Shown here piece by piece: positions 23,836-47,811 of a stretch of 64,000 nucleotides of DNA. A model generated the notes under the pieces. The model saw only the letters and a program-made list of their open reading frames with translations. It made no database searches and was not told where the DNA came from. The position numbers and the translations under genes are program-made. Source of the DNA: Lachnospiraceae bacterium (GTDB taxonomy: Bacteria > Bacillota > Clostridia > Lachnospirales > Lachnospiraceae); NCBI GenBank assembly GCA_024698145.1, contig JAILRO010000016.1:1-64000 (forward strand). The letters run 5' to 3'. Each line of letters starts with the position of its first letter. The stretch's first letter is position 1.

Positions 23836-24534
23836 ATGAACGGTAACATTTACACAAATGATAAAAATGAAATAATGTTTGGTTTCTCTTGTGGTGGACA
23901 TTACTATCATATTCTTCTTAAGGACATTCTCTACTTTGAAAGTGCAGGGCGCAAATGTATCCTTCACACATCAGAGGGCATGACTACCTACAGCTTCTAC
24001 GGAAAATTAGGCGATGTCGCAGAGACACTTTCAGATTACGGCTTTACCAGATGCCATCAGAGTTACCTTGTATCGGTTGCTCACGCGACAGCCTATCACA
24101 AAGGATATATCACCGTAGGCGGGTATCCTATCTCTGTCAGCGAAAAGTATCGAAGGAACATCATTGACCTTTTTTGCGATAATCAATCAACCGAATATCT
24201 CACAGACAAAAATGGCAAAACCGTCGGTGTTTTGGTATGTATTAGCGGTCAATATAAAGGCTCGATAATAAGGATATATCCTGATATTACTTACGAAATC
24301 GGAAGAGACGAAAAAGAATGTGAAATAGTAATCCGTCTCCCTTATGTGAGCAGAAAACATTTATCGCTTACATATCGCAATGACGGAACTTATGAAATAA
24401 ACGACCACTCGCATAACGGAACATACCTTATCCACGAGGATGACCGTGCAGAGAAATTAACTGCAGATAATATCGTGCCATCTGGTTCTGTCATATGCTT
24501 CGGAGACCATTCACTGCAATATCGTCTTATTTAA
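23836..24534 (+). CDS. LytTR DNA-binding domain fused to an FHA domain
   Basis: Residues about 15-115 form a LytTR DNA-binding domain (ILYFESAGRKCILHT, then FTRCHQSYLVSVAHA and SEKYRRNI). Residues about 130-232 form an FHA domain with EIGR at 154-157, VSRKH at 171-175 and NGT at 194-196. LytTR domains usually follow a receiver domain; here a phosphothreonine-binding FHA domain replaces it. This suggests a transcription factor that answers to Ser/Thr phosphorylation, presumably by the kinase encoded two genes downstream. AAAGGTGA precedes the ATG. The architecture is unusual to me; both domain calls are well supported by motifs. Confidence 0.8.
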   Translation: MNGNIYTNDKNEIMFGFSCGGHYYHILLKDILYFESAGRKCILHTSEGMTTYSFYGKLGDVAETLSDYGFTRCHQSYLVSVAHATAYHKGYITVGGYPISVSEKYRRNIIDLFCDNQSTEYLTDKNGKTVGVLVCISGQYKGSIIRIYPDITYEIGRDEKECEIVIRLPYVSRKHLSLTYRNDGTYEINDHSHNGTYLIHEDDRAEKLTADNIVPSGSVICFGDHSLQYRLI

Positions 24535-24544
24535 GGAGAAACAT

Positions 24545-25066
24545 ATGAATCTTATCAAATGCCCTAATAACCATTTTTACAATGCTGATCATTTTCCTTC
24601 CTGCCCTCATTGTGCCAACACTGATTCTTCAGACAGCACTAATAACAACACAAACGAATCTGATATAAACACCTCTCCTGTAGAACGTAACATCGAAGAA
24701 ATGCAGTCGCAGAATAAACATATGTTAGCCGGCTGGCTCGTGTGTATAGACGGAGCAGAATACGGCAAATACTATCCTCTTTTCTGCGGAAGTAACGCTA
24801 TAGGACGTGGTGCAAATATGGATGTACAAATAACATCAGACGAAGAAATCAGCAGACAAACACATGCAGAAATTATATATGATGCTGACCGCATCACCTA
24901 TTCTATAGTAGTTAACCGAAGTTCCAATCCGGTATATGTTAACGGGGCAATAATTACCACTGATACAGACAAACCATTTCCACTTCAGGACAGAGACCGC
25001 ATTCGAATCGGCTCTCATACATTTATATTAGCAACATTTTGCAACAACGATTTCTCATGGAGGTAA
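24545..25066 (+). CDS. Zinc-ribbon plus FHA-domain protein
   Basis: The 173-residue protein begins with KCPNNHFYN...CPHC (Cys6, His10, Cys20, Cys23), a compact zinc-ribbon-like segment. An Asn/Ser/Asp-rich linker and an FHA domain (about 62-170, with AIGRGANMDV and an SRQTH variant of the SxxH motif) follow. FHA domains read phosphothreonine; the altered SxxH spacing may change specificity. AAGGAG precedes the ATG, 10 bp after the LytTR-FHA gene. It is probably a substrate or adaptor of the downstream kinase. Confidence 0.75.
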   Translation: MNLIKCPNNHFYNADHFPSCPHCANTDSSDSTNNNTNESDINTSPVERNIEEMQSQNKHMLAGWLVCIDGAEYGKYYPLFCGSNAIGRGANMDVQITSDEEISRQTHAEIIYDADRITYSIVVNRSSNPVYVNGAIITTDTDKPFPLQDRDRIRIGSHTFILATFCNNDFSWR

Positions 25067-25071
25067 TTAGC

Positions 25072-26619
25072 ATGTCACAGGACAAGCTGTCACACACACT
25101 TCCAACCGGATATATTCTTCATGACATTTTCGAAATCGAAAGCGTAATCGGCGAAGGAGGTTTCGGAATTACTTATCGTGCAAAAAATCTTGCAGCAAAA
25201 CCACAAGACAAATCCACAACTTCCGATATATCGCATGTAGCTATCAAAGAGTATTATCCCCTTGGCGTTGCCACCAGAGATACTCACAATGACAATCCTT
25301 ATGCGGTTACTCATTACAAAGGCGAGCTGGAAATCGCATTTAATAAAGGTCTGGATCGCTTCAGACAAGAAGCCTACCTCCTCAAGGAATTTGAGGATTT
25401 GGACAGTATCGTAACAGTTCTGGATATCTTTGAGGAAAACAATACAACTTATATTGTAATGGAATACATAGAAGGACTTACTATAAAGAAGCTTGTCGAG
25501 CAGGAAGGACTCCTGCCTTATCCCGAGTTTATGGAACTTATCACCCCATTACTCCATGACATAAGTCGTATCCACAACAAAGGGCTTATCCACAGGGATA
25601 TAAGTCCCGACAATCTGCTGATTGGAACCGACAATCGGTTACATCTTATAGACTTCGGTTCTGCCAACCACAATAACCTTAAAATCACAAAAACATTTAC
25701 CGTTATATTAAAAGCCGGCTACGCTCCACCCGAGCAATACTCGCCGAAAGGCAAAATCGGTCCCTGGACAGATGTTTACGGTCTGTGTGCGGTTTTTTAT
25801 TTTGCACTTACCGGTCACACACCAACCGATTCTCTCCAAAGAATGCAGATAAAGGAATCGGAAACTCACGATAATGATATTGAAAATGATCTTAAACATG
25901 CCATTGACCTACCTCCACATGCAGCACACGTTATTGCGCAGGGATTAAGTCTTTCTTACAAAGAGCGCTATCCTTCTGTGCAAATGCTATACAACGCATT
26001 GACAACGCCTCCCGTCAGAGACGACAACGTCACAGCAATGCACATCCACGAAGACAAGCCAAAAGTCAAACGTACGTACAAAACACCCGTATTGTTTGCA
26101 TGCATTTTCGCTCTTTTCACTATTGTATTACTTGTGAATTATTATCACACCAAGGATTTGTCGAATATTAAAATGGAAAGCAATCTTAGTTTTACCAATG
26201 AAAATCTGATTCCAGCATCAGGACATTTAACATCGTTACATAATTATATAGAAGATTATTCAAAAGAAATCGAAAAACAATATAAAATATTAAATATGAT
26301 TGACATGGTTGGGACAAACCTTACAGATGCCAAAAATAATCTAAACGAATTGGATTCAAACATTGAAGTCAATACGACAAGTGATTACAGCGATGCATAT
26401 CCCAAAGATACCGTTATTTCACAAAGTATTGCTCCCAATACACAATTTACCAGAGGTAATATTTCAAGAATTACCTTAACCATAAGTCTTGGCACAAAGC
26501 CTGTTAACAAAACCGCCCAAAGCAGCAACGGCAAATCAAGTAAAAGCAATAAGAAATCCTATAACGTTACAGGCACCAAAAAGGATGATGGATACACCAC
26601 CATCCACATCGGTGATTGA
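25072..26619 (+). CDS. Membrane Ser/Thr protein kinase with PASTA-like domain
   Basis: The ATG at 25072 follows GGAGG and gives 515 residues. The cytoplasmic kinase domain shows the glycine loop GEGGFGITYRA, VAIK (Lys59), a catalytic loop HRDISPDNLL (Asp176, with Ser replacing the usual Lys of HRDxKxxN) and LIDFGSA (Asp194). A membrane span near 338-358 is followed by an extracellular part with one PASTA-like repeat (about 415-480: VGTNLTDAKNNL, ending ITLTISLG) and a Ser/Lys/Asn-rich tail. PASTA kinases sense peptidoglycan fragments or lipid II. No PppL/Stp phosphatase is next to it. It probably phosphorylates one or both FHA proteins encoded upstream. The Ser in the catalytic loop is unusual but may not abolish activity. 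Confidence 0.82.
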   Translation: MSQDKLSHTLPTGYILHDIFEIESVIGEGGFGITYRAKNLAAKPQDKSTTSDISHVAIKEYYPLGVATRDTHNDNPYAVTHYKGELEIAFNKGLDRFRQEAYLLKEFEDLDSIVTVLDIFEENNTTYIVMEYIEGLTIKKLVEQEGLLPYPEFMELITPLLHDISRIHNKGLIHRDISPDNLLIGTDNRLHLIDFGSANHNNLKITKTFTVILKAGYAPPEQYSPKGKIGPWTDVYGLCAVFYFALTGHTPTDSLQRMQIKESETHDNDIENDLKHAIDLPPHAAHVIAQGLSLSYKERYPSVQMLYNALTTPPVRDDNVTAMHIHEDKPKVKRTYKTPVLFACIFALFTIVLLVNYYHTKDLSNIKMESNLSFTNENLIPASGHLTSLHNYIEDYSKEIEKQYKILNMIDMVGTNLTDAKNNLNELDSNIEVNTTSDYSDAYPKDTVISQSIAPNTQFTRGNISRITLTISLGTKPVNKTAQSSNGKSSKSNKKSYNVTGTKKDDGYTTIHIGD

Positions 26620-26808: not shown

Positions 26809-26837
26809 TTGACGTGTATACAATTTAAAACTATAAT
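26809..26837 (+). promoter_or_regulatory. Strong pfl promoter
   Basis: TTGACG (26809-26814) and TATAAT (26832-26837) are exactly 17 bp apart. A TGTATACA palindrome occupies the spacer, so a repressor bound there would directly block RNA polymerase. Confidence 0.8.
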
Positions 26838-26915: not shown

Positions 26916-28961
26916 ATGATGAAATCGGAAGCATGGAATGGTTTCAATGGCGGAAACTGGGAGAGGTTCGTCGACGTACGTGACTTTATTCAGAAGAACT
27001 ACACTCCATATGAAGGTGATGACACTTTCTTAACAGGCCCTACACAGAACACAAAGGATCTTTGGGCACAGGTTATGGATCTTACAAAGAAGGAAAGAGA
27101 AGCAGGCGGTGTGCTTGATATGGATACAAAGGTTGTTTCTACTTTAACTTCTCACGGTGCAGGATATCTTGATAAGGACAAAGAGACAATCGTTGGTTTC
27201 CAGACAGATGCTCCTTTCAAGAGAGGAATGAACGTATACGGTGGACTTCGTATGGCTATGAAGGCTTGCGAGGATAACGGATACAAAGTTGACGATGAAA
27301 TCGTAGAGTTCTTCTCTAAGCATAGAAAGACACATAACGAAGGTGTATTCGACGTTTACGATGCTGAGATCAGAAGATGCCGTACAAACCATATCGTAAC
27401 AGGACTTCCGGATGCTTACGGACGTGGACGTATCATCGGCGACTACAGAAGAGTTGCTCTTTACGGTACAGATTTACTTATCGAGGATAAGTTAGCACAG
27501 AAGGAATCATTTGGTACAGTTTACACTGATGATGTAATCAGAGGTAAAGAAGAGATTTCAGAGCAGATCAAGGCTCTTAAGGAATTAACAAAGATGGCAA
27601 GCTTCTACGGCTTCGATATTTCTAAGCCTGCTACAAACGTACAGGAAGCTATCCAGTGGACATACTTCGGTTATCTTGGAGCAGTTAAGGAGCAGAACGG
27701 TGCTGCAATGTCACTTGGACGTACAGCTACATTCTTAGACTGCTACGCTGAGAGAGACTTGAAGGCTGGTAAGTTTACTGAGGAGCAGATTCAGGAGTTC
27801 GTTGATCACTTCGTAATGAAGCTTCGTTGCGTTAAGTTTGCTCGTACACCTGAGTACAACCAGATCTTCGCTGGTGACCCGGTTTGGGTAACAGAGTCAT
27901 TAGGTGGTATGGGTGTTGACGGACGTACACTTGTTTCTAAGATGAGCTTCCGTTACCTTAACACTCTTAACAACTTAGGTACAGCACCGGAGCCGAACTT
28001 AACAGTTCTCTGGTCAACACGTCTTCCTCTTGGATGGAAGCAATTCTGTGCTAAGATGTCAATCAAGTCATCTTCTATCCAGTACGAGAATGATGATATG
28101 ATGAGACCTATCCACGGTGATGACTACGGTATCGCTTGCTGCGTATCTTCAATGGTTATCGGTAAAGAGATGCAGTTCTTCGGAGCTCGTGCAAACCTTG
28201 CAAAATGTCTCCTTTACGCTATCAACGGTGGTGTTGATGAGTGTACAGGCGTACAGGTAGGTCCTAAGTACCGTCCTGTAGAGGGTGACGTTCTTGATTA
28301 TGATGATGTAATGGCTAAGTTCGACGACATGATGGAATGGCTTGCTAAAGTTTACGTTAGCGCACTTAACATCATCCACTATATGCATGACAAGTATGCT
28401 TATGAGAGAATCCAGATGGCTTTACATGATAGAGACGTTAAGAGATACTTCGCAACAGGTGTTGCAGGTCTTTCAATCGTTGCTGACTCATTATCAGCAA
28501 TCAAGTACGCTAAGGTTAAGCCGGTTCGTAACGAGCAGGGTATCGTAGTAAGCTACGAGACAGAGGGAGACTTCCCTAAATATGGTAACAACGATGATCG
28601 TGTTGATGAGATTGCTACTTACATTGTTACAACATTCATGGATAAGATCAGAAAACAACACGTTTACAGAAATGGTGTTCCTACACAGTCAATCCTTACA
28701 ATTACTTCTAACGTAACATATGGTAAGAATACTGGTGACACACCTTGTGGACGTAAGCATGGTGCACCATTCGCACCTGGTGCTAACCCACTTCACAAGA
28801 GAGATACTCACGGTGCAGTAGCTTCACTTGCATCAGTTGCTAAGATTCCTTTCAAGGATGCTCAGGATGGTATTTCTAATACATTCTCAATCATCCCTGG
28901 AGCTCTTGGTAAAGAGGATCAGGTATTTGCAGGAGATATCGATATCGACCTTAGCAAATAA
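26916..28961 (+). CDS. pflB: Pyruvate formate-lyase barrel protein lacking the glycyl radical domain
   Basis: This protein matches PFL along its full 681 residues, including the N-terminal [10 protein letters not shown] and the catalytic [10 protein letters not shown] with Cys408-Cys409 (Cys418-Cys419 in the E. coli enzyme). It stops after [16 protein letters not shown], where E. coli PflB continues for about 70 residues with the glycyl radical domain. That missing part is encoded two genes downstream (29271-29516); 681 plus 81 residues gives the length of a normal PFL of about 760. PFL converts pyruvate and CoA to acetyl-CoA and formate. Codon use is strongly biased (AAG, CTT, GTT), as expected for a very highly expressed gene. 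AAAGGAGG precedes the ATG pair. It needs the radical domain in trans and PflA. Confidence 0.93.
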
Positions 28962-29005
28962 TTAACAGGTAAACGCATACAGAAACAGTTCGTGGAGGTA
29001 TAGTT

Positions 29006-29221
29006 ATGGAAGATAAGAATCAGGTAGATGACATTGTAGCTATGTTAGATAACATGATGGGCAACGGTCACGGACATGTAAATGTTTCTGTGGATGATAC
29101 CGTTGCAGCAGGCGAGAAATCCGAGGTTACACTCGGTTGTACCGATTGTGCCAAGGGTGACCTCGCATGCAGCGTTCCTACTCTCATGGAGGGTATGGAT
29201 GAAGAACTTCAACAGGATTAA
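29006..29221 (+). CDS. Small Cys-containing relative of the PFL radical domain
   Basis: This 71-residue protein lies between the PFL barrel gene and the radical-domain gene. Its first half (QVDDIVAMLDNMMGNGHGHVNVSVDD) lines up with the opening of the downstream protein ([27 protein letters not shown]). The RVSGYAV radical loop is absent; instead the second half holds GCTDCAKGDLAC (C-x2-C-x6-C). A GGAGG site precedes the ATG. I know no named family of this form. It could be a structural stand-in or placeholder for the radical domain, a redox or metal-sensing subunit, or a regulator of PFL assembly. All of these are inference; the homology of the first half is visible directly. Confidence 0.75.
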   Translation: MEDKNQVDDIVAMLDNMMGNGHGHVNVSVDDTVAAGEKSEVTLGCTDCAKGDLACSVPTLMEGMDEELQQD

Positions 29222-29270
29222 TCCTGTTGTAACAAATATCGTATAATTATAATTAAAGGAGGACGATGTA

Positions 29271-29516
29271 ATGGCAGCAACCAATACACAGCAGATCGAT
29301 AACTTAGTTAACATGTTAGACGGATATGTAGCAGAAGGTGGATATCACCTTAATGTTAACGTACTTAACCGTGAGACATTATTAGACGCTCAGGCTCATC
29401 CTGAAAACTACCCACAGCTTACAATCCGTGTTTCAGGATACGCTGTTAACTTCATCAAGTTAACACCTGAACAGCAGGCAGACGTTATCTCAAGAACATT
29501 CCATGAGTCTATGTAA
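29271..29516 (+). CDS. Detached C-terminal glycyl radical domain of PFL
   Basis: The 81-residue protein is the missing end of [39 protein letters not shown] and the terminal [17 protein letters not shown] match the last part of E. coli PflB (GGQHLNVNVMNREMLLDA and so on). Gly56 in RVSGYAV corresponds to the radical-bearing Gly734. Small free glycyl radical domains are known as GrcA/YfiD, which patch oxygen-cleaved PFL, but there they accompany an intact PFL. Here the barrel protein has no such domain, so this subunit should be essential. AAAGGAGG precedes the ATG, and the gene ends at a terminator. It must be activated by PflA. Confidence 0.9.
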
Positions 29517-29543: not shown

Positions 29544-29575
29544 ACAGGCAAGGACGACGTCCTTGCCTGTTCTTT
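29544..29575 (+). terminator. Terminator of the split pfl operon
   Basis: ACAGGCAAGGAC-GAC-GTCCTTGCCTGT is a perfect 12-bp hairpin followed by TCTTT. It ends the three-gene pfl transcript before the structured region. Confidence 0.85.
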
Positions 29576-40537: not shown

Positions 40538-41278
40538 CTATCTTCCACAACGCGTGCAGGGTGACAATCCACCCACAGAACTTTTTCTCACTCGCATAAC
40601 CGTCCTCTTAAGACCAAGGCAATGCGGATTTGTGTGATAAACATCACCGGTTTTTGCAATATAGACTTTACCGCTTTCCACCTTTTTGTTTTTGCAAAAC
40701 GCACACGGCTCCATACGCCCGTGCCCATTTCGTTCCTCCACGCTAATATTTAGATGGCTACATCCTCTGCTTAAATGATACACAGACTCGTTAGGCGTTA
40801 CATAGACGTAATAATCCGCCTCGTTTCCATCTTCCTTGCCGTACCCAAGAAACGCTTTTTGCCTTACCTTGATACTTCGCGGCATATGAAATGATCCAAT
40901 AATTGGAGCATGAATATTAATGACAAATGATGCATTTGCCATGAAAACCTTCCTGTCGGTTGCATCCGGAAGCGCTGTCACAACAATCCCTTTTCTTCCT
41001 CCTGCAACCACCTTATCCACGAACTTAGCATTTTCAATATTCTTACAAAATTGCGTGTACAACACACCGGTGCACATTACACTTACTTCATCATTTTTTC
41101 TAATTCTGCTTTCAAGATAACAGTATTTTGAACTGTACACAGCCGCATCCGATAGGCTTTGGCATATACAACAATCCGCATATATCGTTGCTCCTATACA
41201 GAAAACAAACAGCATGAAAAACAAAAACAACGGCACCGTAATACATGCCTCAACTGTGGCCGAACCCCTGTTATTCAA
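40538..41278 (-). CDS. TadE-family pseudopilin with two Cys/His zinc-binding-like repeats
   Basis: Translation probably starts at a TTG at 41278 preceded by GGGAGGG. The N-terminus RGSATVEACITVPLFLFFMLF is a TadE signal (basic leader, Glu, hydrophobic helix). The unusual part is the C-terminus (about 155-246): two tandem copies of a VYH-x-x-x-x-C-x-x-L ... PC-x-x-C pattern (YHLSRGCSHL...EPCAFCK and YHTNPHCLGL...SPCTRCGR). Similar Cys/His modules in secreted Firmicutes proteins are thought to bind zinc. It is probably a minor pilus subunit carrying a metal-stabilised head. Confidence 0.75.
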   Translation of the reverse strand: MNNRGSATVEACITVPLFLFFMLFVFCIGATIYADCCICQSLSDAAVYSSKYCYLESRIRKNDEVSVMCTGVLYTQFCKNIENAKFVDKVVAGGRKGIVVTALPDATDRKVFMANASFVINIHAPIIGSFHMPRSIKVRQKAFLGYGKEDGNEADYYVYVTPNESVYHLSRGCSHLNISVEERNGHGRMEPCAFCKNKKVESGKVYIAKTGDVYHTNPHCLGLKRTVMRVRKSSVGGLSPCTRCGR

Positions 41279-41408
41279 GTTATCCCTCCCTCTTAAGTGG
41301 TTTACAAAAGCCCTTACAAGGTCAAATTGCTTGTGCTTGGAGATTTTTTTATTTTTTAGGGTATTACATCAAAACATCCGACAATGCAAGTGCTTTTGTA
41401 AGCCACCT
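41279..41408 (-). repeat. Long inverted repeat inside the Tad operon
   Basis: AGTGGTTTACAAAAGC (41296-41311) and GCTTTTGTAAGCCACCT (41392-41408) form a 15-16 bp stem with one G-U pair, enclosing about 80 nt. The right arm overlaps the stop codon of the upstream DUF5702 gene. No T tract follows on the minus strand, so it does not look like a terminator. It may be an mRNA processing or stabilising stem that sets different levels of the flanking genes, or a small palindromic element. Confidence 0.65.
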
Positions 41409-42867
41409 AATATTCGACCTTCTCTTCAAAATAATAGCTGTAAGATTCATCCTCTTCCTTACGAAAGAAATTATTGATTCGTGCCTCACCCTGAAAAATC
41501 AATTCACCGCACAAATTAACCACAGATAAATTCTCTTGTTTCAGATTCTTCTCTATGACATCCAACATTCGTGCATATGTAACATCTTTGCTTTCTTTTC
41601 GAAGCAACATAAGATACAGGTAATCCTTGTATGCCATGCCTGTCTCTTCCTTTATTCCATTACCGTCACAAAGCGTTTTCAAATCCGTCCTCCATTTATC
41701 CGGTGTCTTCACATAGGGAAGCTTTTCTCCATGCATCAACGCTCTGACCTCACTTATCGATTCCCCGTAAGACCAACATCCCATAAGCAGATATTTGACA
41801 ATCTCAACCATGGGCATCGTCCCTGTTGCAGTACATATCGCGGTTGCAAGCGTAAGCGCCTCGCCTTGCTTTGCCTCATCCTGCATAATACAAAGGTAAT
41901 TAACCGGCATCCTCGTCCATATAATCTCATTTAACACTGCTTCAAGATTGGCATAGTCATTGTCCTTACCCTTCAATATATACTCCGTTTCACATTTCAT
42001 ATCACTACCTTCCATCTCTTTTCCCTGATAGGAAAAATGGTCCAGCACATACGAAGCAAACGCAAGTTTTGAAGTCATCCCAAGACCCTTCCCACTACTT
42101 TCTTTTGCAATATCATCAAGCGCCTCCGTCATCTTACCGACATCGGAAAACGAGGCATCTTTATCCTCCTTTACCTCTTCTTTGTACTCACTTGAAGGCG
42201 AGTTTGAAAAGTCCTGTGGGTCTTTGGAAACTGTCGTCCCCTCCGGCAATACAAGTGCAAGCACCCCCAGACTTAAGTTGCTCTTTAATACATCTCTTGG
42301 ATCATCAACCTGTTCCTCATTCTTTTCAAAATGCTCCTCTTTCTCTTCCTCACTTACGTTATTATCTTCCGGAATAACCGTCGCATTTCTTTTGGTTGTG
42401 TCCGAAGCTTCACTAACCTCCTTCGAGTTGTCCATTACATTTTGTGGCAATTCAGTCGCCTTTTTAATGAGACCTTCCTTTGTCTCATATTCCGTAATCT
42501 GCTTTTTTAGTAATTTCATGTGATCATCCATAATTGTCTTTTTGCTCACAAGCGCCACATCTTTTAACGAGCACGAGTAAACTTCCTTATCAGCGTCAAG
42601 TGAAGCGATAACATAGTCTGCAAACTTCTCCTCTACCATGGCATCACTTCCCGTGCCGTATGTTGGGTCCATGAAAAGTAAATGATACCTCTCAAACAAA
42701 TCTCTGTTGTAATCTGCCATGATGCTGGTTCGTGCGCTATGAAGTACAGCTCTTATTTTCACGCGTCCGCAATATATTCTTACAACCTCCAGTGCAGTGA
42801 AGGTTAATACAAGCAACACTCCTATTATTAATGAATAAAAAACTGTAGTTTGTCCCCGGTTCTTCAT
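41407..42867 (-). CDS. DUF5702-type Tad-associated protein
   Basis: The 486-residue protein begins with a pseudopilin-like N-terminus (RGQTTVFYSLIIGVLLVLTFTALEVVRIYCG) and continues with a long extracytoplasmic region containing SARTSIMADYNRDLFERYHLLFMD, typical of DUF5702 proteins found in Firmicutes Tad loci. An acidic, Ser/Glu-rich linker occupies the middle (about 150-235). It is probably a large minor pilus or assembly component. GGGAGGTG precedes the ATG. It lies between the Flp pilin and the TadE-like gene. Confidence 0.8.
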   Translation of the reverse strand: MKNRGQTTVFYSLIIGVLLVLTFTALEVVRIYCGRVKIRAVLHSARTSIMADYNRDLFERYHLLFMDPTYGTGSDAMVEEKFADYVIASLDADKEVYSCSLKDVALVSKKTIMDDHMKLLKKQITEYETKEGLIKKATELPQNVMDNSKEVSEASDTTKRNATVIPEDNNVSEEEKEEHFEKNEEQVDDPRDVLKSNLSLGVLALVLPEGTTVSKDPQDFSNSPSSEYKEEVKEDKDASFSDVGKMTEALDDIAKESSGKGLGMTSKLAFASYVLDHFSYQGKEMEGSDMKCETEYILKGKDNDYANLEAVLNEIIWTRMPVNYLCIMQDEAKQGEALTLATAICTATGTMPMVEIVKYLLMGCWSYGESISEVRALMHGEKLPYVKTPDKWRTDLKTLCDGNGIKEETGMAYKDYLYLMLLRKESKDVTYARMLDVIEKNLKQENLSVVNLCGELIFQGEARINNFFRKEEDESYSYYFEEKVEY

Positions 42868-42909
42868 AGCACACCTCCCAAATCATTTCCGAAAATTGTT
42901 AACAGTTAC

Positions 42910-43083
42910 CTAATAAATTTTCTTTGCGCTTTCGTTAATAGATTTCCATATATTATTAACCAGCGTTGTTATCTGCTCTTTGAAAATAACTACCATCGCA
43001 ATCAGCACAACTATAATAAGAATTATTTCAACTACACCCATTCCGGATTCATCGTCGAAAAAATCCTTTAATACATTCCACAT
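42910..43083 (-). CDS. Flp-type pilin
   Basis: Starting at the ATG at 43083 (six bases after GGGGGTG) the protein has 57 residues: a short leader WNVLKDFFDDESGMG, then VVEIILIIVVLIAMVVIF, the hydrophobic N-terminal helix with Glu at position +3 after Gly. This is the usual Flp1 cleavage site recognised by the prepilin peptidase. The mature pilin of about 40 residues would be the major pilus subunit. It sits right after tadC in the operon. Confidence 0.85.
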   Translation of the reverse strand: MWNVLKDFFDDESGMGVVEIILIIVVLIAMVVIFKEQITTLVNNIWKSINESAKKIY

Positions 43084-43123
43084 TTTCATCACCCCCTTTC
43101 TCGAAACCATAAGTTTTGTCATT

Positions 43124-44452
43124 TTATGAGAAGCTTAAAAATGCCGGAATCATAATCACCAACATCACAATCAAAAGAAGCAATATCATTGGCCCCAACA
43201 ATTTGGTCCCAGCCTCCTCGCCCCTTTGCTTTGCAAGATTGATTCGTTCCGTCATGGCATTTCTCTCCTCCTGCTCTAACAGTGAAACCATACCCTTTGA
43301 CCCTTTTGTGACATTCTGCTCCAAAAGTGTCATGACTTTCACATAGCAGGGAAGCTTAAGCCTTCTTCCTAACCTGTAGTAGATTTCTCCCTCGGACATT
43401 CCAATATCAAAATCATTTAATGCCTTACCAAGACCTTCAATAAGTTGCAGTCTGTAGTCATCTCCCGTCTTTTTCTTATAGTCATCAACCATCATTTTGA
43501 AGATTCTTTTTATCTGCATCCCGGCACCGAGAAAAAGCACCAGCTCGTTTATAAACCAGGGATAAGAAAGCAACAGATTTCTTTTAATCAACAAATCATT
43601 ATTCTTCTTATCTTCCAACTCCTTAACGCCAAGCAAAACAACAACCACAATTCCAATCACCAGAATCGAAATAGCTTTTTTGCCACTATTATCAGAAAAT
43701 GCCATGCTTACGTTTTTATAACTTGACGGAAGCTCGAAACTTTCATCGTAAGACGATTTTTCTTCTTTATCCTTGTATAGTTTTGTGACCGCATCGACAT
43801 TTTCCTCCCACGCATTTTTATCCGGAGAAAAAACTGTCAATTCATAGTCCTTGCTCTTTGTAATGTCCTCGTATATAAGCGTTATATTCACAACCACACC
43901 GATTCCACTCAATATTTCTTCATTGGAAAAACCCTGTTCGAGCAGTGCATCCACATCATTTCTAACCTCGCCACTCTCATTAACAACACGATAATCTGAA
44001 GGCCTTACCTTAATTTCAAAAGGAAATTCCTCGTAAGGTAGTTCAACATTTATATTGCCTTTCACCTCATCAAGAGATGCGTTATCTCCTTTCAAATGTT
44101 CATCAAAATAAGCAAAGGAATTATCCATAAGACGCATTACTTCTTCCTTTTTTATCCTGACCGGCCTAACCGAAAGTTCAACTTCTCCCGAGTTTTTTTC
44201 ATCGTTTACAGAGAACGAATATGTCTTTTCGTCCTCATAAAACTTAGGTCTTTCAATATACAATTCTTTTGTTTTATTAAGGGTAAATGTGAAACTTAAA
44301 GTGTTGAAAATCAACAGAACAATTAATAGAATGTAATGATTCTTTATGTAACAGATAATCGAGTTGTTTGCACCGGGCTTTTTAACAAAACCAAAAAGCA
44401 TTGCTGCGATTATCAAAACAAACAATAAAAGATTTACAATTTGTATGTTCAA
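43124..44452 (-). CDS. tadC: TadC-like T2SS-F protein with a large extracytoplasmic insertion
   Basis: The 442-residue protein (TTG start at 44452 preceded by AAAGGGGTGG) ends in the GspF/TadC domain (about 290-442: SYPWFINELVLFLGAGM, QLIEGLGKALNDFDIGMSEGE, then MTERINLAKQRGEEAGTKLLGP and a terminal span). It is unusual in carrying about 190 extracytoplasmic residues (75-265) between two N-terminal spans and the F domain. TadC normally lacks such a domain. It forms the inner-membrane platform with TadB. The insertion may reach the peptidoglycan or pilus base. Confidence 0.8.
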   Translation of the reverse strand: MNIQIVNLLLFVLIIAAMLFGFVKKPGANNSIICYIKNHYILLIVLLIFNTLSFTFTLNKTKELYIERPKFYEDEKTYSFSVNDEKNSGEVELSVRPVRIKKEEVMRLMDNSFAYFDEHLKGDNASLDEVKGNINVELPYEEFPFEIKVRPSDYRVVNESGEVRNDVDALLEQGFSNEEILSGIGVVVNITLIYEDITKSKDYELTVFSPDKNAWEENVDAVTKLYKDKEEKSSYDESFELPSSYKNVSMAFSDNSGKKAISILVIGIVVVVLLGVKELEDKKNNDLLIKRNLLLSYPWFINELVLFLGAGMQIKRIFKMMVDDYKKKTGDDYRLQLIEGLGKALNDFDIGMSEGEIYYRLGRRLKLPCYVKVMTLLEQNVTKGSKGMVSLLEQEERNAMTERINLAKQRGEEAGTKLLGPMILLLLIVMLVIMIPAFLSFS

Positions 44453-44464
44453 TCAACCACCCCT

Positions 44465-45211
44465 TTACACAGGAATATCAATAATCTTAGAAGCCCAGAA
44501 GTCAGCTAAGTATATTCCCGCAAGAAAAACTGTCATAAGCATGATTCCCGGCAGATTATGATAAAGCACATTTAAAAAATCGCCGTTACTTAACCGCAGA
44601 TAAAAAAGCATTCCATACGGTGTAAGCAACATGATTTTTGCCTCGTATTTTTTTGCTGTAAGCATTGTTTCAATCTCCTGAAATAGTGCTCTTTTTTCCA
44701 AAAGACTTCTCACTGTCTTCTCAATAATCTTAATCAGATTACCCCCGCTTTTTTTTGCAGCACCCACAATATTGGCAAAGTTCTCTATATCCTCAACCCC
44801 ACTTCTGACACCAAACTCCTTTAGCAAATCTTCAATCGGTGCGTTGATTTTTAAGCCGTTGATTATTTCATCAACCTCTGCAAAAATCAACTCGTCCTTG
44901 TCGTACTGCATCAACAGATCTCGTCTTGCATCAACAAAAGCTCTCTCCAACGAATAACCTGCCGACAGCGAAGTAACCAATGCCTCCATCAGCGTTCCAA
45001 ATTGTTCACTAAGCTTCCTTATACGTTCTCTCTTCTTGTTCTCAATAAGTTTTCTATAATCCATGACAAAAAACGGAATCAATATAACGAACATATACAT
45101 CGAATCATAAAACAGATATCCGATTGTAACCGCCTTAATCAATACCGTAATCGCATATTCAGTTATATCTCTTGTAGTCGGTTGATACCTTGTGTAATCA
45201 ATTCTTTCCAC
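44465..45211 (-). CDS. tadB: TadB-like T2SS-F platform protein
   Basis: The 248-residue protein begins at a GTG (45211) preceded by AAAGGAGA. It carries two early spans and the T2SS-F domain (LSEQFGTLMEALVTSLSAGYSLERAF, IEDLLKEFGVRSGVEDIENFANIV, KKSGGNLIKIIEKT) followed by two terminal spans. It forms the membrane platform of the Tad apparatus with TadC and is driven by the CpaF ATPase. Compared with full-length TadB the N-terminal region is short. Confidence 0.85.
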   Translation of the reverse strand: MERIDYTRYQPTTRDITEYAITVLIKAVTIGYLFYDSMYMFVILIPFFVMDYRKLIENKKRERIRKLSEQFGTLMEALVTSLSAGYSLERAFVDARRDLLMQYDKDELIFAEVDEIINGLKINAPIEDLLKEFGVRSGVEDIENFANIVGAAKKSGGNLIKIIEKTVRSLLEKRALFQEIETMLTAKKYEAKIMLLTPYGMLFYLRLSNGDFLNVLYHNLPGIMLMTVFLAGIYLADFWASKIIDIPV

Positions 45212-45243
45212 ATGTCTTCTCCTTTTCCCAATTCATCTAAGCA

Positions 45244-46482
45244 TTAATTACAAAACTCGCAATCAGGTTCCTCCCCGCTTCTTTGAAGTTTATCCAAATT
45301 AATTAAACTTCCTGTTTTCTTAAGCGCTCCTTTTACCTTTCCGTCAGCCATCCCCTCATCGACAAATTCATATATTGTGTTAAGACATATTTCTCCGTTC
45401 TTAATCCCGGTTATCTCACAAACCTCTAATACCTTTCTCGAATTATCCCTTAACCTTCCTAAATGAACGACAATATCTATTGCCGCTGCAAGCTGTCCTC
45501 TTATCGCGGCAACCGGCATGTCATAACCCATAAGAATCATAGTCTCAAGACGTAGCATCATTTCCCTGGCCGAATTACCATGCCCCGTACTTAGACTGCC
45601 ATCATGTCCTGTAAGCATTGAGTTTGCCATGTCCATCGCTGCCGCATCTCTTACCTCGCCAACTATTATTCGTGTCGGTCTCATTCTAAGAGCCGTTTTA
45701 ATAAGTGCCGACATTGTAACCTCATTTTCGCCTTCAACATTCGCATTCCTCGTCTCTAATCTCACAAGATTCTCAAGGCCATGAAGTTGTAATTCCGCCG
45801 CATCTTCAATTGTTATTACACGGTCCGATTTTGGTATGTAATTGGATAAAACATTAAGAAATGTTGTCTTGCCGCTTCCTGTTCCTCCACTAATGAAAAT
45901 GTTATATTTTGCTCGCACAAGACTCCTCAAAAAAGAAGCACACTCCGCGGTTATCGAGCCCATATCAATAAGCCTTTCCATTGTGAAAAACTCCTTTGGA
46001 AACTTTCGAATAGTCATCACTGCACCATCAAGTGCAACCGGAGGAAGTACGATATTGACACGCGAACCATCCTTAAGCCTTGCATCTACTATCGGCACTG
46101 TTTCATTTACTATTCTGTTACACCCGCTTACAATCTGCTGGATAACATTGCGAAGTCTCTCCTCCGATGAAAACGCTTCCTCTACTCGAATGAGTTCACC
46201 GCGTTTTTCGATAAATATTTTGTCGCTGCCATTTATCATAATCTCCGAAATATCTTCATCTTCAAGGAACTGTGACAGCACATCAAGCCTTCTAAATACA
46301 TCAAACAATTCTTTCTTTAATTGCCGACGTTCCTCGATAGATACGTAAGTCTGTCTGCACCTTTTTATAATGGCTTCTTCTATACGCGAATTTATCTCTT
46401 CATCTGTCAGGTGTCCCATCCCACCAAGACTAACGAAAAGCTCCTCGGAAAGTCTTGCTTTTTCTTCTGTTAATCTGCTCAT
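45244..46482 (-). CDS. cpaF: CpaF/TadA secretion ATPase
   Basis: This 412-residue protein is the Tad assembly ATPase. It has an N-terminal domain with EDISEIMINGSDKIFIEKRG, then Walker A ISGGTGSGKTT (about 195-205), an Asp box (ITIEDAAELQL), Walker B (PTRIIVGEVRDAAAMDM) and a His box (GHDGSLSTGHGNS). It powers pilin polymerisation, probably as a hexamer. The ATG overlaps the cpaE stop codon by 4 bp. Confidence 0.95.
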   Translation of the reverse strand: MSRLTEEKARLSEELFVSLGGMGHLTDEEINSRIEEAIIKRCRQTYVSIEERRQLKKELFDVFRRLDVLSQFLEDEDISEIMINGSDKIFIEKRGELIRVEEAFSSEERLRNVIQQIVSGCNRIVNETVPIVDARLKDGSRVNIVLPPVALDGAVMTIRKFPKEFFTMERLIDMGSITAECASFLRSLVRAKYNIFISGGTGSGKTTFLNVLSNYIPKSDRVITIEDAAELQLHGLENLVRLETRNANVEGENEVTMSALIKTALRMRPTRIIVGEVRDAAAMDMANSMLTGHDGSLSTGHGNSAREMMLRLETMILMGYDMPVAAIRGQLAAAIDIVVHLGRLRDNSRKVLEVCEITGIKNGEICLNTIYEFVDEGMADGKVKGALKKTGSLINLDKLQRSGEEPDCEFCN

Positions 46483-47378
46483 TCCATCAATCTCCTTATA
46501 TACGCATGTGGCTCGTTTTTCATATCCAGAAAATATATTCTTTCAAGCATATCCTCCATATCACAAACCCTTAACACCTTCTCAAAATGTCCTTTCTTTC
46601 CAAACGAAATCTCATCATTTATGTACGGGACAACCACCTTATCAAAAGCAGAAAGCATGGAGAAATCCGTCATCACACCAAGCCCCATATCAAAAACAAC
46701 CCCTCTGTATCCGGGTATTTTTTCAAACACTTCAAAAAACCATTCCAAATCATTCCTATTCAGACCTCTTGTATCAAAAAAGGAAAATGGTGACGGAACC
46801 ACACCGTTTGACATCTGCAATATTTCTGTAACCTTATCTGCCTTTCTCTCTTTGACATAATAGAAAAAATCATCCGCACTATCGTTATCAACGTCCTTTA
46901 AGTAGCCGTAATCTTCCATTCCGACATACAGCCAGCCACCAATTCCCGATATAACATCGAGTAAAAGTGTTGTCTTACCACATCTCGACACTGGGGAATA
47001 CACTACAACGCAAGTCTTATTCTTAACCGCCAACATGCCAAGACTTTCCACTACTTTCCTTATCTCTTCGCATATCACCCGAGCATTCTGATATCGAAAC
47101 ACAAGACTTATTCCACCCTCTGCATATCGTTTACTTTCCTCCGAAGAGAGATATATACAATTTAACTGCGGATAATTTTCTTTTATGGATAACAGCTCTT
47201 CTTTATCCGTCGAAACAATCAGATCAAGCTTATTTTTCTCCAGACTTTCTTTGACAATATTTTTTTCTGTATAGCCACTTACTTTCCATCGGCTCTTACC
47301 ATCTTTGTTCATAAACACAGATAGTCTCGTCACATAAGAAAGTTCTTTATCATAGACACCTATTCTTACCTTGTCCAT
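46479..47378 (-). CDS. CpaE/TadZ-like localisation ATPase
   Basis: Starting at 47378 (ATG after GGGGGTG) the protein has 299 residues. An N-terminal receiver-like part precedes a MinD/ParA-type P-loop (VVYSPVSRCGKTTLLLDV near 133-150), in which the deviant Walker A Lys is not obvious (SRCGKTT). FDTRGL, VVFDMGLGV and VVVPYINDEISFG follow as further MinD-like strands. TadZ proteins place the Tad machine at a cell pole. It overlaps cpaF by 4 bp. Confidence 0.75.
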   Translation of the reverse strand: MDKVRIGVYDKELSYVTRLSVFMNKDGKSRWKVSGYTEKNIVKESLEKNKLDLIVSTDKEELLSIKENYPQLNCIYLSSEESKRYAEGGISLVFRYQNARVICEEIRKVVESLGMLAVKNKTCVVVYSPVSRCGKTTLLLDVISGIGGWLYVGMEDYGYLKDVDNDSADDFFYYVKERKADKVTEILQMSNGVVPSPFSFFDTRGLNRNDLEWFFEVFEKIPGYRGVVFDMGLGVMTDFSMLSAFDKVVVPYINDEISFGKKGHFEKVLRVCDMEDMLERIYFLDMKNEPHAYIRRLME

Positions 47379-47379
47379 G

Positions 47380-47811
47380 TCACACCCCCTTTTCAAACAA
47401 AGACAATATATAAATCACGCAAAACCCAACCATAATCGGTATCGAAAAATGAATTGTCTCACCTTTTTGTATTATCTTTTTGCCTGTAAATGCACGTGCC
47501 AAAAATACAACAATAATGTATGCTGCACCAATTACAAATGATGCTATTGTTACGTTTATTATCATTCTCGGAAAAAACATTGCCAAAACACAAAGTAGTT
47601 TTATATCTCCGGCCCCAAGACCTTTTATTAAATATAGTGGAAATAAAAGTAGAAAAAATACTAAAGACATTTTGAAACCGTCTGTTATAAGACTTATATC
47701 ACCGCTACAGACGTTTATTATTATTCCGGATATATACGCATACAGAAGAAGTTTATTCTCTATCTTCCCTCGCTTTCTATCCGTATAGACTGCTCTTAAA
47801 AGAGTAATCAT
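47380..47811 (-). CDS. cpaA: Prepilin peptidase (CpaA/TadV, A24 family)
   Basis: The 143-residue membrane protein has about five spans and the two A24 aspartates: one in the N-terminal YTDRKRGKIENKLL loop and one in LGAGDIKLL (GxGD motif). It cleaves the leader of Flp and TadE-type prepilins. It is the first gene of the Tad operon. The ATG at 47811 has no good ribosome site close by; GGTGAG lies about 25 nt upstream, so the start is not secure. Confidence 0.85.
   Translation of the reverse strand: MITLLRAVYTDRKRGKIENKLLLYAYISGIIINVCSGDISLITDGFKMSLVFFLLLFPLYLIKGLGAGDIKLLCVLAMFFPRMIINVTIASFVIGAAYIIVVFLARAFTGKKIIQKGETIHFSIPIMVGFCVIYILSLFEKGV

Follow-up and report, generated by a model that had tools for sequence, protein, structure and literature searches.

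A pyruvate formate-lyase encoded as separate barrel and radical-domain proteins in Lachnospiraceae, with a conserved small protein between them

Many gut anaerobes obtain acetyl-CoA and formate from pyruvate formate-lyase (PFL), whose textbook form is a single-chain homodimer. According to passages of a 2025 paper, most glycyl radical enzymes (GREs), including PFL, are homodimers of one polypeptide, although further accessory subunits may be unrecognised (PMC12590467). As set out in excerpts of a second paper, the activating enzyme PflA places a radical on a glycine, from which it passes to an active-site cysteine; oxygen cuts the chain at the radical, and the lost part can be replaced by small radical-domain proteins (PMC12288474). 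E. coli PFL cut at the radical glycine is rescued by YfiD, and parts of that work state that PFL residues 696-733 are needed for this rescue and, together with the N-terminal half of YfiD, help YfiD to bind (PMC8683613). The locus described here lies in positions 1-64,000 of contig JAILRO010000016.1 from Lachnospiraceae bacterium GCA_024698145.1 (a draft genome of 71 contigs, 99.85% complete), and this whole 64,000-nt stretch is referred to as the window. It encodes, in this order, a PFL chain without a radical domain (the barrel), a middle protein (MID), and a separate radical-domain subunit (GRD) (Table 1). The arrangement is best explained by a PFL that is obligately split into three or more gene products and works by the mechanism proposed below, a reading to which a probability of about three in four is assigned.

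The locus shares with single-chain PflB (E. coli chain 1h16; NCBIfam TIGR01255) a barrel with an adjacent cysteine pair, an RVSGYA loop, a nearby PflA, and a nearly equal summed length (681 + 81 = 762 residues, compared with 759 in 1h16), but here the first chain stops soon after the ALGK motif, the radical domain is a separate protein, and a third small gene lies between the two. The barrel scores 1087.7 bits against the TIGR01255 formate C-acetyltransferase model, above the curated cut-off of 994.2 even though the match covers model positions 1-665 of 744 and the last 79 positions are absent, while the GRD covers positions 662-744. The Pfam Gly_radical profile is likewise divided over the two proteins, with profile positions 1-50 on the barrel and 49-106 on the GRD, and the glycyl radical loop is carried by the 81-residue protein rather than by the barrel chain. 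The residues A407, C408, and C409 are invariant in all 24 aligned barrels, the motif ACCVSSM aligns with the C418/C419 region of the E. coli enzyme, and 23 aligned barrels share 75-99% identity with that of the window. A predicted structure of the barrel, built on a 24-row alignment with a mean pLDDT (predicted local distance difference test) of 63.9 and used solely for fold confirmation, has the PFL fold, with 2pfl as its best match in the PDB (E 1e-57). An earlier reading of this DNA, hereafter the original prediction, had described a 681-residue PFL ending where the radical domain should begin, an 81-residue protein that is this domain with RVSGYAV, and a sum of 762 residues that fits a normal PFL; the profile matches and the E. 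coli chain length agree on all three points.

The GRD also passes the cut-off of NCBIfam NF038360, GrcA3 (159.7 bits; cut-off 158), a 78-position model that spans the radical domain only and neither the barrel nor MID. It fails the cut-off of the GrcA/YfiD model TIGR04365 (104.1 bits; cut-off 170), of which it matches positions 64-126 only. Like GrcA/YfiD, it is a free-standing radical domain that PflA would activate and that would hand the radical on, in trans, to a PFL barrel. GrcA, however, has an N-terminal half that is missing from the GRD, and it restores a damaged enzyme whose gene is intact, whereas an intact PFL was not found in this genome. A search of the genome with PF02901 returned a single match, the split barrel itself, and a search with PF01228 returned two further glycyl-radical places, neither of which matches PF02901. 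Both of these frames contain Cys-x-x-Cys pairs followed near the end by TRRTCGYLG or ARRTCGYIG, features that we take to be marks of class III ribonucleotide reductase, and one of them adjoins an open reading frame (ORF) for an NrdG-like radical S-adenosylmethionine (SAM) protein. The two look like anaerobic (class III) ribonucleotide reductases, NrdD, and the possibility of a PFL concealed among the other glycyl-radical matches was dismissed on their NrdD-like motifs and the lack of a PF02901 match.

Single-chain PFLs were also sought in other genomes with a barrel query at E≤1e-60. MID is present in 99 of 397 genomes of the family, and 80 of these 99 were searched, leaving out ten that are <85% complete and nine that were the second from their genus; 38 additional genomes comprised 36 with a split PFL and two single-chain controls. 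No single-chain PFL was found in 77 of the 80 MID genomes (it is present in G132, G265, and G284, and in G022, G060, and G129 the barrel was recovered solely as pieces) or in 32 of the 36 other split genomes (present in G085, G296, G384, and G645). In total, 109 of 116 split-PFL genomes are without a single-chain PFL and 7 of 116 have one too. Because the only PF02901 match of the window's own genome is the split barrel, and because 109 of the 116 split-PFL genomes yielded no single-chain form, the radical must almost certainly act in trans. This upholds the proposal of radical transfer in trans made in the original prediction, and the two checks that it had suggested, for an intact pflB elsewhere in the genome and for split PFLs without single-chain pflB among Lachnospiraceae, gave the same answer, the former within the limits of a 71-contig draft.

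Two readings would make the split trivial. The barrel and GRD genes do share one reading frame, as a normal gene broken by a sequencing or assembly error might, but nine in-frame stops (the barrel's own counted) lie between 28959 and 29270, so that one error could not join them and a continuous frame across 28961-29271, which had been raised as a possibility, is excluded. A GGAGG-type ribosome site precedes each of the barrel, MID, and GRD genes, and the same arrangement recurs in 80 of 80 named loci; error or pseudogene was therefore rejected, and its probability is negligible. The GRD could instead serve, in the manner of GrcA, as a spare for an intact PFL encoded elsewhere, the barrel gene then being a truncated leftover. 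In favour of this are the NCBIfam name of the GRD ("autonomous glycyl radical cofactor GrcA3"), the additional solitary GRD genes of 12 MID genomes, and the single-chain PFLs of 7 of the 116 split genomes. The intact enzyme that such a spare part would serve was found neither in this genome nor in 109 of the 116 split genomes, and the close identity of the aligned barrels to that of the window also speaks against a leftover. This explanation was set aside on the whole-genome searches and is very improbable. The twelve solitary GRD genes (L056-L067) have no barrel within the ∼3-4 kb fetched on either side, and in L057 the adjacent gene reads by eye like rubrerythrin, a hint of an oxygen-stress spare.

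The gene between the barrel and the GRD encodes a protein with no Pfam or NCBIfam family, its GrcA3 score of 16.4 bits being far under the cut-off, and its two halves resemble different parts of the enzyme. The first 35 residues of MID are related to the start of the GRD: GRD queries match MID in some relatives, profiles match in both directions in many, and a MID profile finds the window's GRD (E 1.3e-6) together with the same segment of many single-chain PFLs. Read off the alignment, this segment corresponds to approximately residues 684-711 of E. coli PFL and contains HLNVNV before the radical loop. The tail has the pattern Cys-x5-Ala-Cys-x-x-Pro-Thr-Leu. Among 60 close MIDs, V11, M13, L14, D15, G23, H24, N26, G44, C45, D47, C48, C55, P58, T59, L60, G63, and D65 are invariant, and D15, G23, N26, C55, P58, T59, and D65 remain so across 23 more diverse ones. 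The median ratio of nonsynonymous to synonymous substitution rates (dN/dS) is 0.08 for MID (16 of 45 pairs usable, many saturated) and 0.074 for the GRD (42 of 45 pairs), which indicates that MID is under purifying selection. The order barrel-MID-GRD is kept in 30 of 30 unnamed loci taken as best matches, the window's own among them. It is kept as well in all 80 named loci, which are the best of 321 candidates found via MID; the two sets have some contigs in common. Judged by its sequence, MID is very probably a functional part of the enzyme.

A solitary protein of 64-70 residues with a MID-like N-terminus was observed away from PFL in the window's own genome (contig C21, ∼46597-46806; L176:2998-3207) and in relatives (L177, L178, and L179), with a different conserved tail, YHxGRCDVGSPxAxG. 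In the former, its gene lies between those for an AAA_14/DUF4143 protein and a WYL-domain protein.

The tail of MID has a counterpart on split barrels without an adjoining MID. Most complete barrels of this kind are 691-711 residues long (676-682 in L039, L047, L070, and L194), compared with 673-688 for those with a linked MID, and most end in a tail like DCSNGACSTPTLFEGLD or ECGNQACNIPNIMESID that resembles the MID C-terminus. Tails were compared for 34 barrels without and 86 with a linked MID (99 minus 13 duplicates), of which 33 and 85, respectively, were readable, the ends of L068 and L098 being unreadable by script. Cysteine occurs in the tail of 27 of the 33 barrels without a linked MID and in none of the 85 with one; the motif [AS]C-x(1,2)-P is found in 22 of the 33, and a profile of the MID C-terminus scores ≥9 bits in 19/33, 0/85, and 3/6800 shuffled tails. 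Such a tail was seen in none of 18 single-chain PFLs, and neither was any cysteine in the segment that runs from ALGK, or the motif equivalent to it, to the radical domain. Only two cysteines are common to most barrel tails and distant MIDs, which favours paired thiols over a cluster. It seems that split PFLs need a Cys module, supplied either in cis as the barrel tail or in trans as MID. The original prediction had left the intervening gene out of account, but the conservation of MID, its fixed place in the named loci, and the likeness of its tail to those of barrels mark it as part of the system; the "obligate two-subunit PFL" inferred there holds as regards the obligate split, no other PFL having been found, and fails as regards two subunits, the conserved MID being a third gene product.

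The distribution of the two forms was followed on a barrel tree of 81 rows, built by a quick method from pieces of at least 560 residues, in which thinning had reduced the MID-type rows from 86 to 31. It places 62 of 63 split rows in one supported group (Shimodaira-Hasegawa-like approximate likelihood ratio, SH-aLRT, 99), L194 falling elsewhere, and a single clade of split rows with L194 left out is not rejected (approximately unbiased, AU, test p 0.148). A single clade of MID-type barrels is rejected (AU p 1e-10), and replacement of MID by tail or of tail by MID would thus have happened more than once; the MID label changes 11 times on the tree, at least 6 of them on starred branches. Three single-chain PFLs (L072, L073, and L199), which have no Cys tail, are nested inside the split group, and their re-fusion is only suggested by this placement.

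In the proposed mechanism, the barrel subunit would hold the catalytic cysteine pair, and PflA would place the glycyl radical on Gly56 of the detachable GRD, a permanent, replaceable radical carrier that would deliver the radical in trans. MID would be a third subunit that docks on the barrel via its radical-domain-like N-terminus and presents its two- or three-Cys tail. The Cys module, in cis or in trans, would cover both the site of the radical domain and the thiols of the active site during absences of the GRD, for activation or for replacement after oxygen cleavage, and the GRD would then displace it for catalysis. That the Cys module has a guard or stand-in role is a tentative suggestion from its sequence and place, favoured over the other roles considered below although the odds are somewhat against it. 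The fuller picture, in which the radical domain is an exchangeable protein cofactor and the Cys module, as its stand-in, closes and shields the thiyl-radical site for as long as that domain is absent, is speculative.

Several observations do not fit readily with this proposal. AlphaFold2 gives MID alone no fold beyond helices 4-19 and 64-68 (pLDDT 58.7), and its docking on the barrel is deduced from sequence; a poor fold in isolation might be expected if MID takes up its structure on binding a partner. Among the barrels without a linked MID, 6 of the 33 whose tails are readable have no cysteine there. Five of these barrels (L039, L047, L189, L193, and L194) belong to loci for which MID was not found by the searches made, and the sixth (L070, G002) has its MID elsewhere in the genome. 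MID is also elsewhere in the case of L068 (G282), whose barrel shows by eye one cysteine right after ALGKD and no AC-x-x-P, so that in both G002 and G282 MID is far from the barrel. The MIDs of L074 and L075 (G012 and G026) end before the AC-x-x-PT part, and in G543 (L181) MID follows the GRD and has a stop flagged inside it. The tree offers only four independent pairs on starred branches, with the tail opposite to MID in 1-3 of them and never the same, too few for significance. The Cys module may have been lost or degraded in places. An early end or internal stop was flagged in the MIDs of G337, G087, G110, and G170 too.

Other roles for MID have to be weighed against that of a docking subunit that guards the site. 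MID might be an adaptor supplying the binding part that the GRD does not have. The GRD aligns to YfiD residues 67-127 only and is without the N-terminal half that, in the parts of the study seen, YfiD needs to bind cut PFL (PMC8683613), so that another protein may supply the binding half; MID is also mostly unstructured by prediction. An adaptor leaves the conserved cysteine pair unexplained, and the cis barrel tail has no radical-domain-like part with which to play that role, and on balance it is rather unlikely. The two conserved cysteines beside a radical-domain-like docking part could also serve as a controlled quencher, the thiols reducing unproductive glycyl or thiyl radicals, or belong to a half-site regulator, with MID filling the site of the second protomer so that one GRD is bound per dimer. 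Passages of one paper describe, for the GRE benzylsuccinate synthase (BSS), a small subunit by which the formation of the thiyl radical is controlled (PMC12590467), but half-site reactivity of PFL itself is disputed, as stated in part of another (PMC12338860), and a quencher or regulator of this kind is unlikely. MID finally invites comparison with the small Fe-S subunits of BSS and 4-hydroxyphenylacetate decarboxylase (HPAD), which are likewise small accessory proteins of a GRE; it is similar in size, Cys-rich, and encoded with a GRE, and C45, C48, C55, and H24 are invariant in 60 of 60 close MIDs. Those subunits, however, bind [4Fe-4S] clusters, whereas MID has two to three conserved cysteines and a radical-domain-like N-terminus, distant MIDs and barrel tails mostly retain two cysteines only, no match to such subunits was found in Pfam, NCBIfam, or PDB, and no fold is predicted. 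Having neither the sequence match, the cysteine count, nor the fold, resembling that of high-potential iron-sulfur proteins (HiPIPs), of BSS beta/gamma or HPAD gamma, MID was rejected as a candidate for this class, and an Fe-S role is quite improbable.

Parts of the system have been recorded before, in the GrcA3 name for the GRD and in two PDB barrels without a radical domain. The barrel finds its best matches in these two entries, 38lb (739 residues; 1108 bits) and 38la (687 residues; 1071 bits), both named "Formate acetyltransferase," and neither appears in the set of 33 PDB matches of the radical domain. In the former the chain continues for 54 residues beyond ALGK, a stretch that includes GECDMCE, and the latter ends shortly after LGK; the two may be split barrels as they occur in nature or products of engineering. 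Both are absent from the 50 matches listed from the fold library (which ends April 2026), and no MID-like chain was found in the PDB. In the literature searched, which has most subscription journals outside it, no description of a split PFL and no trace of MID or of a cis/trans Cys module was found, though the split itself may be known to specialists.

Table 1. Features of the split PFL locus, in window positions.
Feature	Position	Strand	Evidence
Promoter-like site TTGACG-17-TATAAT, 5' of barrel gene	26809..26837	+	consensus scan, 11/12 matches
PFL barrel subunit, 681 aa, without radical domain; C408/C409 codons 28137-28142	26916..28961	+	ORF, Pfam/NCBIfam matches
MID, 71 aa; radical-domain-like N-terminus (about residues 6-30) and Cys tail GCTDCAKGDLACSVPTLMEGMD	29006..29221	+	genome search, alignment
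GRD, 81 aa, NCBIfam GrcA3, RVSGYAV; predicted radical Gly56, codon 29436-29438	29271..29516	+	Pfam/NCBIfam
Terminator-like hairpin, 12 pairs, 3' of GRD gene	29544..29570	+	sequence scan
pflA, PFL-activating radical SAM enzyme, 258 aa	30030..30806	+	TIGR02493 271.2 bits, cut-off 231.75
Small 2[4Fe-4S] ferredoxin, 56 aa	30922..31092	+	NF058577 86.3 bits, cut-off 65

The barrel, MID, and GRD genes lie head to tail with gaps of 44 bases (barrel-MID) and 49 bases (MID-GRD). With a promoter-like site before the barrel and a hairpin after the GRD, the three are therefore probably one transcript, the promoter-like site being the best of 19 that the consensus scan found in the region, where shuffled sequence averages 13.8. 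No RNA elements were found in the operon at E≤0.1. The ferredoxin gene follows pflA on the same strand in 43 of the 80 named loci, some of which stop short of that position, and its product is a possible electron donor. Directly upstream of the PFL operon (23836-26619) are genes for a PASTA-domain Ser/Thr kinase and for two proteins that by eye look FHA-like, and the minus strand of the window at 40538-47396 carries what reads by eye as a Tad-type pilus cluster (CpaF-like ATPase, TadB/C-like membrane proteins, and TadE-like prepilins).

A radical-domain match of any kind occurs in 335 of the 397 family genomes. The named loci are mostly titled Lachnospiraceae, with Coprococcus, Clostridium, Acetatifactor, Eubacterium, Lachnospira, Blautia, Eubacteriales, and Clostridiales also represented and one locus titled Bacteroidales; the barrel frame is broken in L096 and L098. 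Separately encoded radical domains are found in at least 8 other families of the class (16 loci fetched), and MID reaches ≥38 bits in 4 of 16 genomes outside the family (G652, G543, G502, and G448). Across 299 phylum-wide genomes, the radical domains among the matches listed lie in frames of at least 741 residues, except in G000, G180, G801, and G968, the last two having frames of 198 and 252 residues. A search for MID on plasmids gave no match. In INPHARED, 1532 phage records, mostly named enterobacterial phages, encode a radical-domain-like protein at E≤1e-10, and three contigs from faecal samples are among the matches listed at 70-81%.

In many gut Clostridia the end of PFL that carries the radical is a small protein of its own, which makes these bacteria a natural setting in which to study a swappable protein radical. 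As the host's only PFL, the split enzyme separates radical storage from catalysis, so that mixing of the parts gives access to radical transfer, exchange, and oxygen damage, and in MID it brings to light a conserved family to which neither Pfam nor NCBIfam gives a name. If the Cys module does stand in for an absent radical domain, it would be the price of a detachable radical, because it is missing from all 18 single-chain PFLs sampled, three of which are possibly re-fused.

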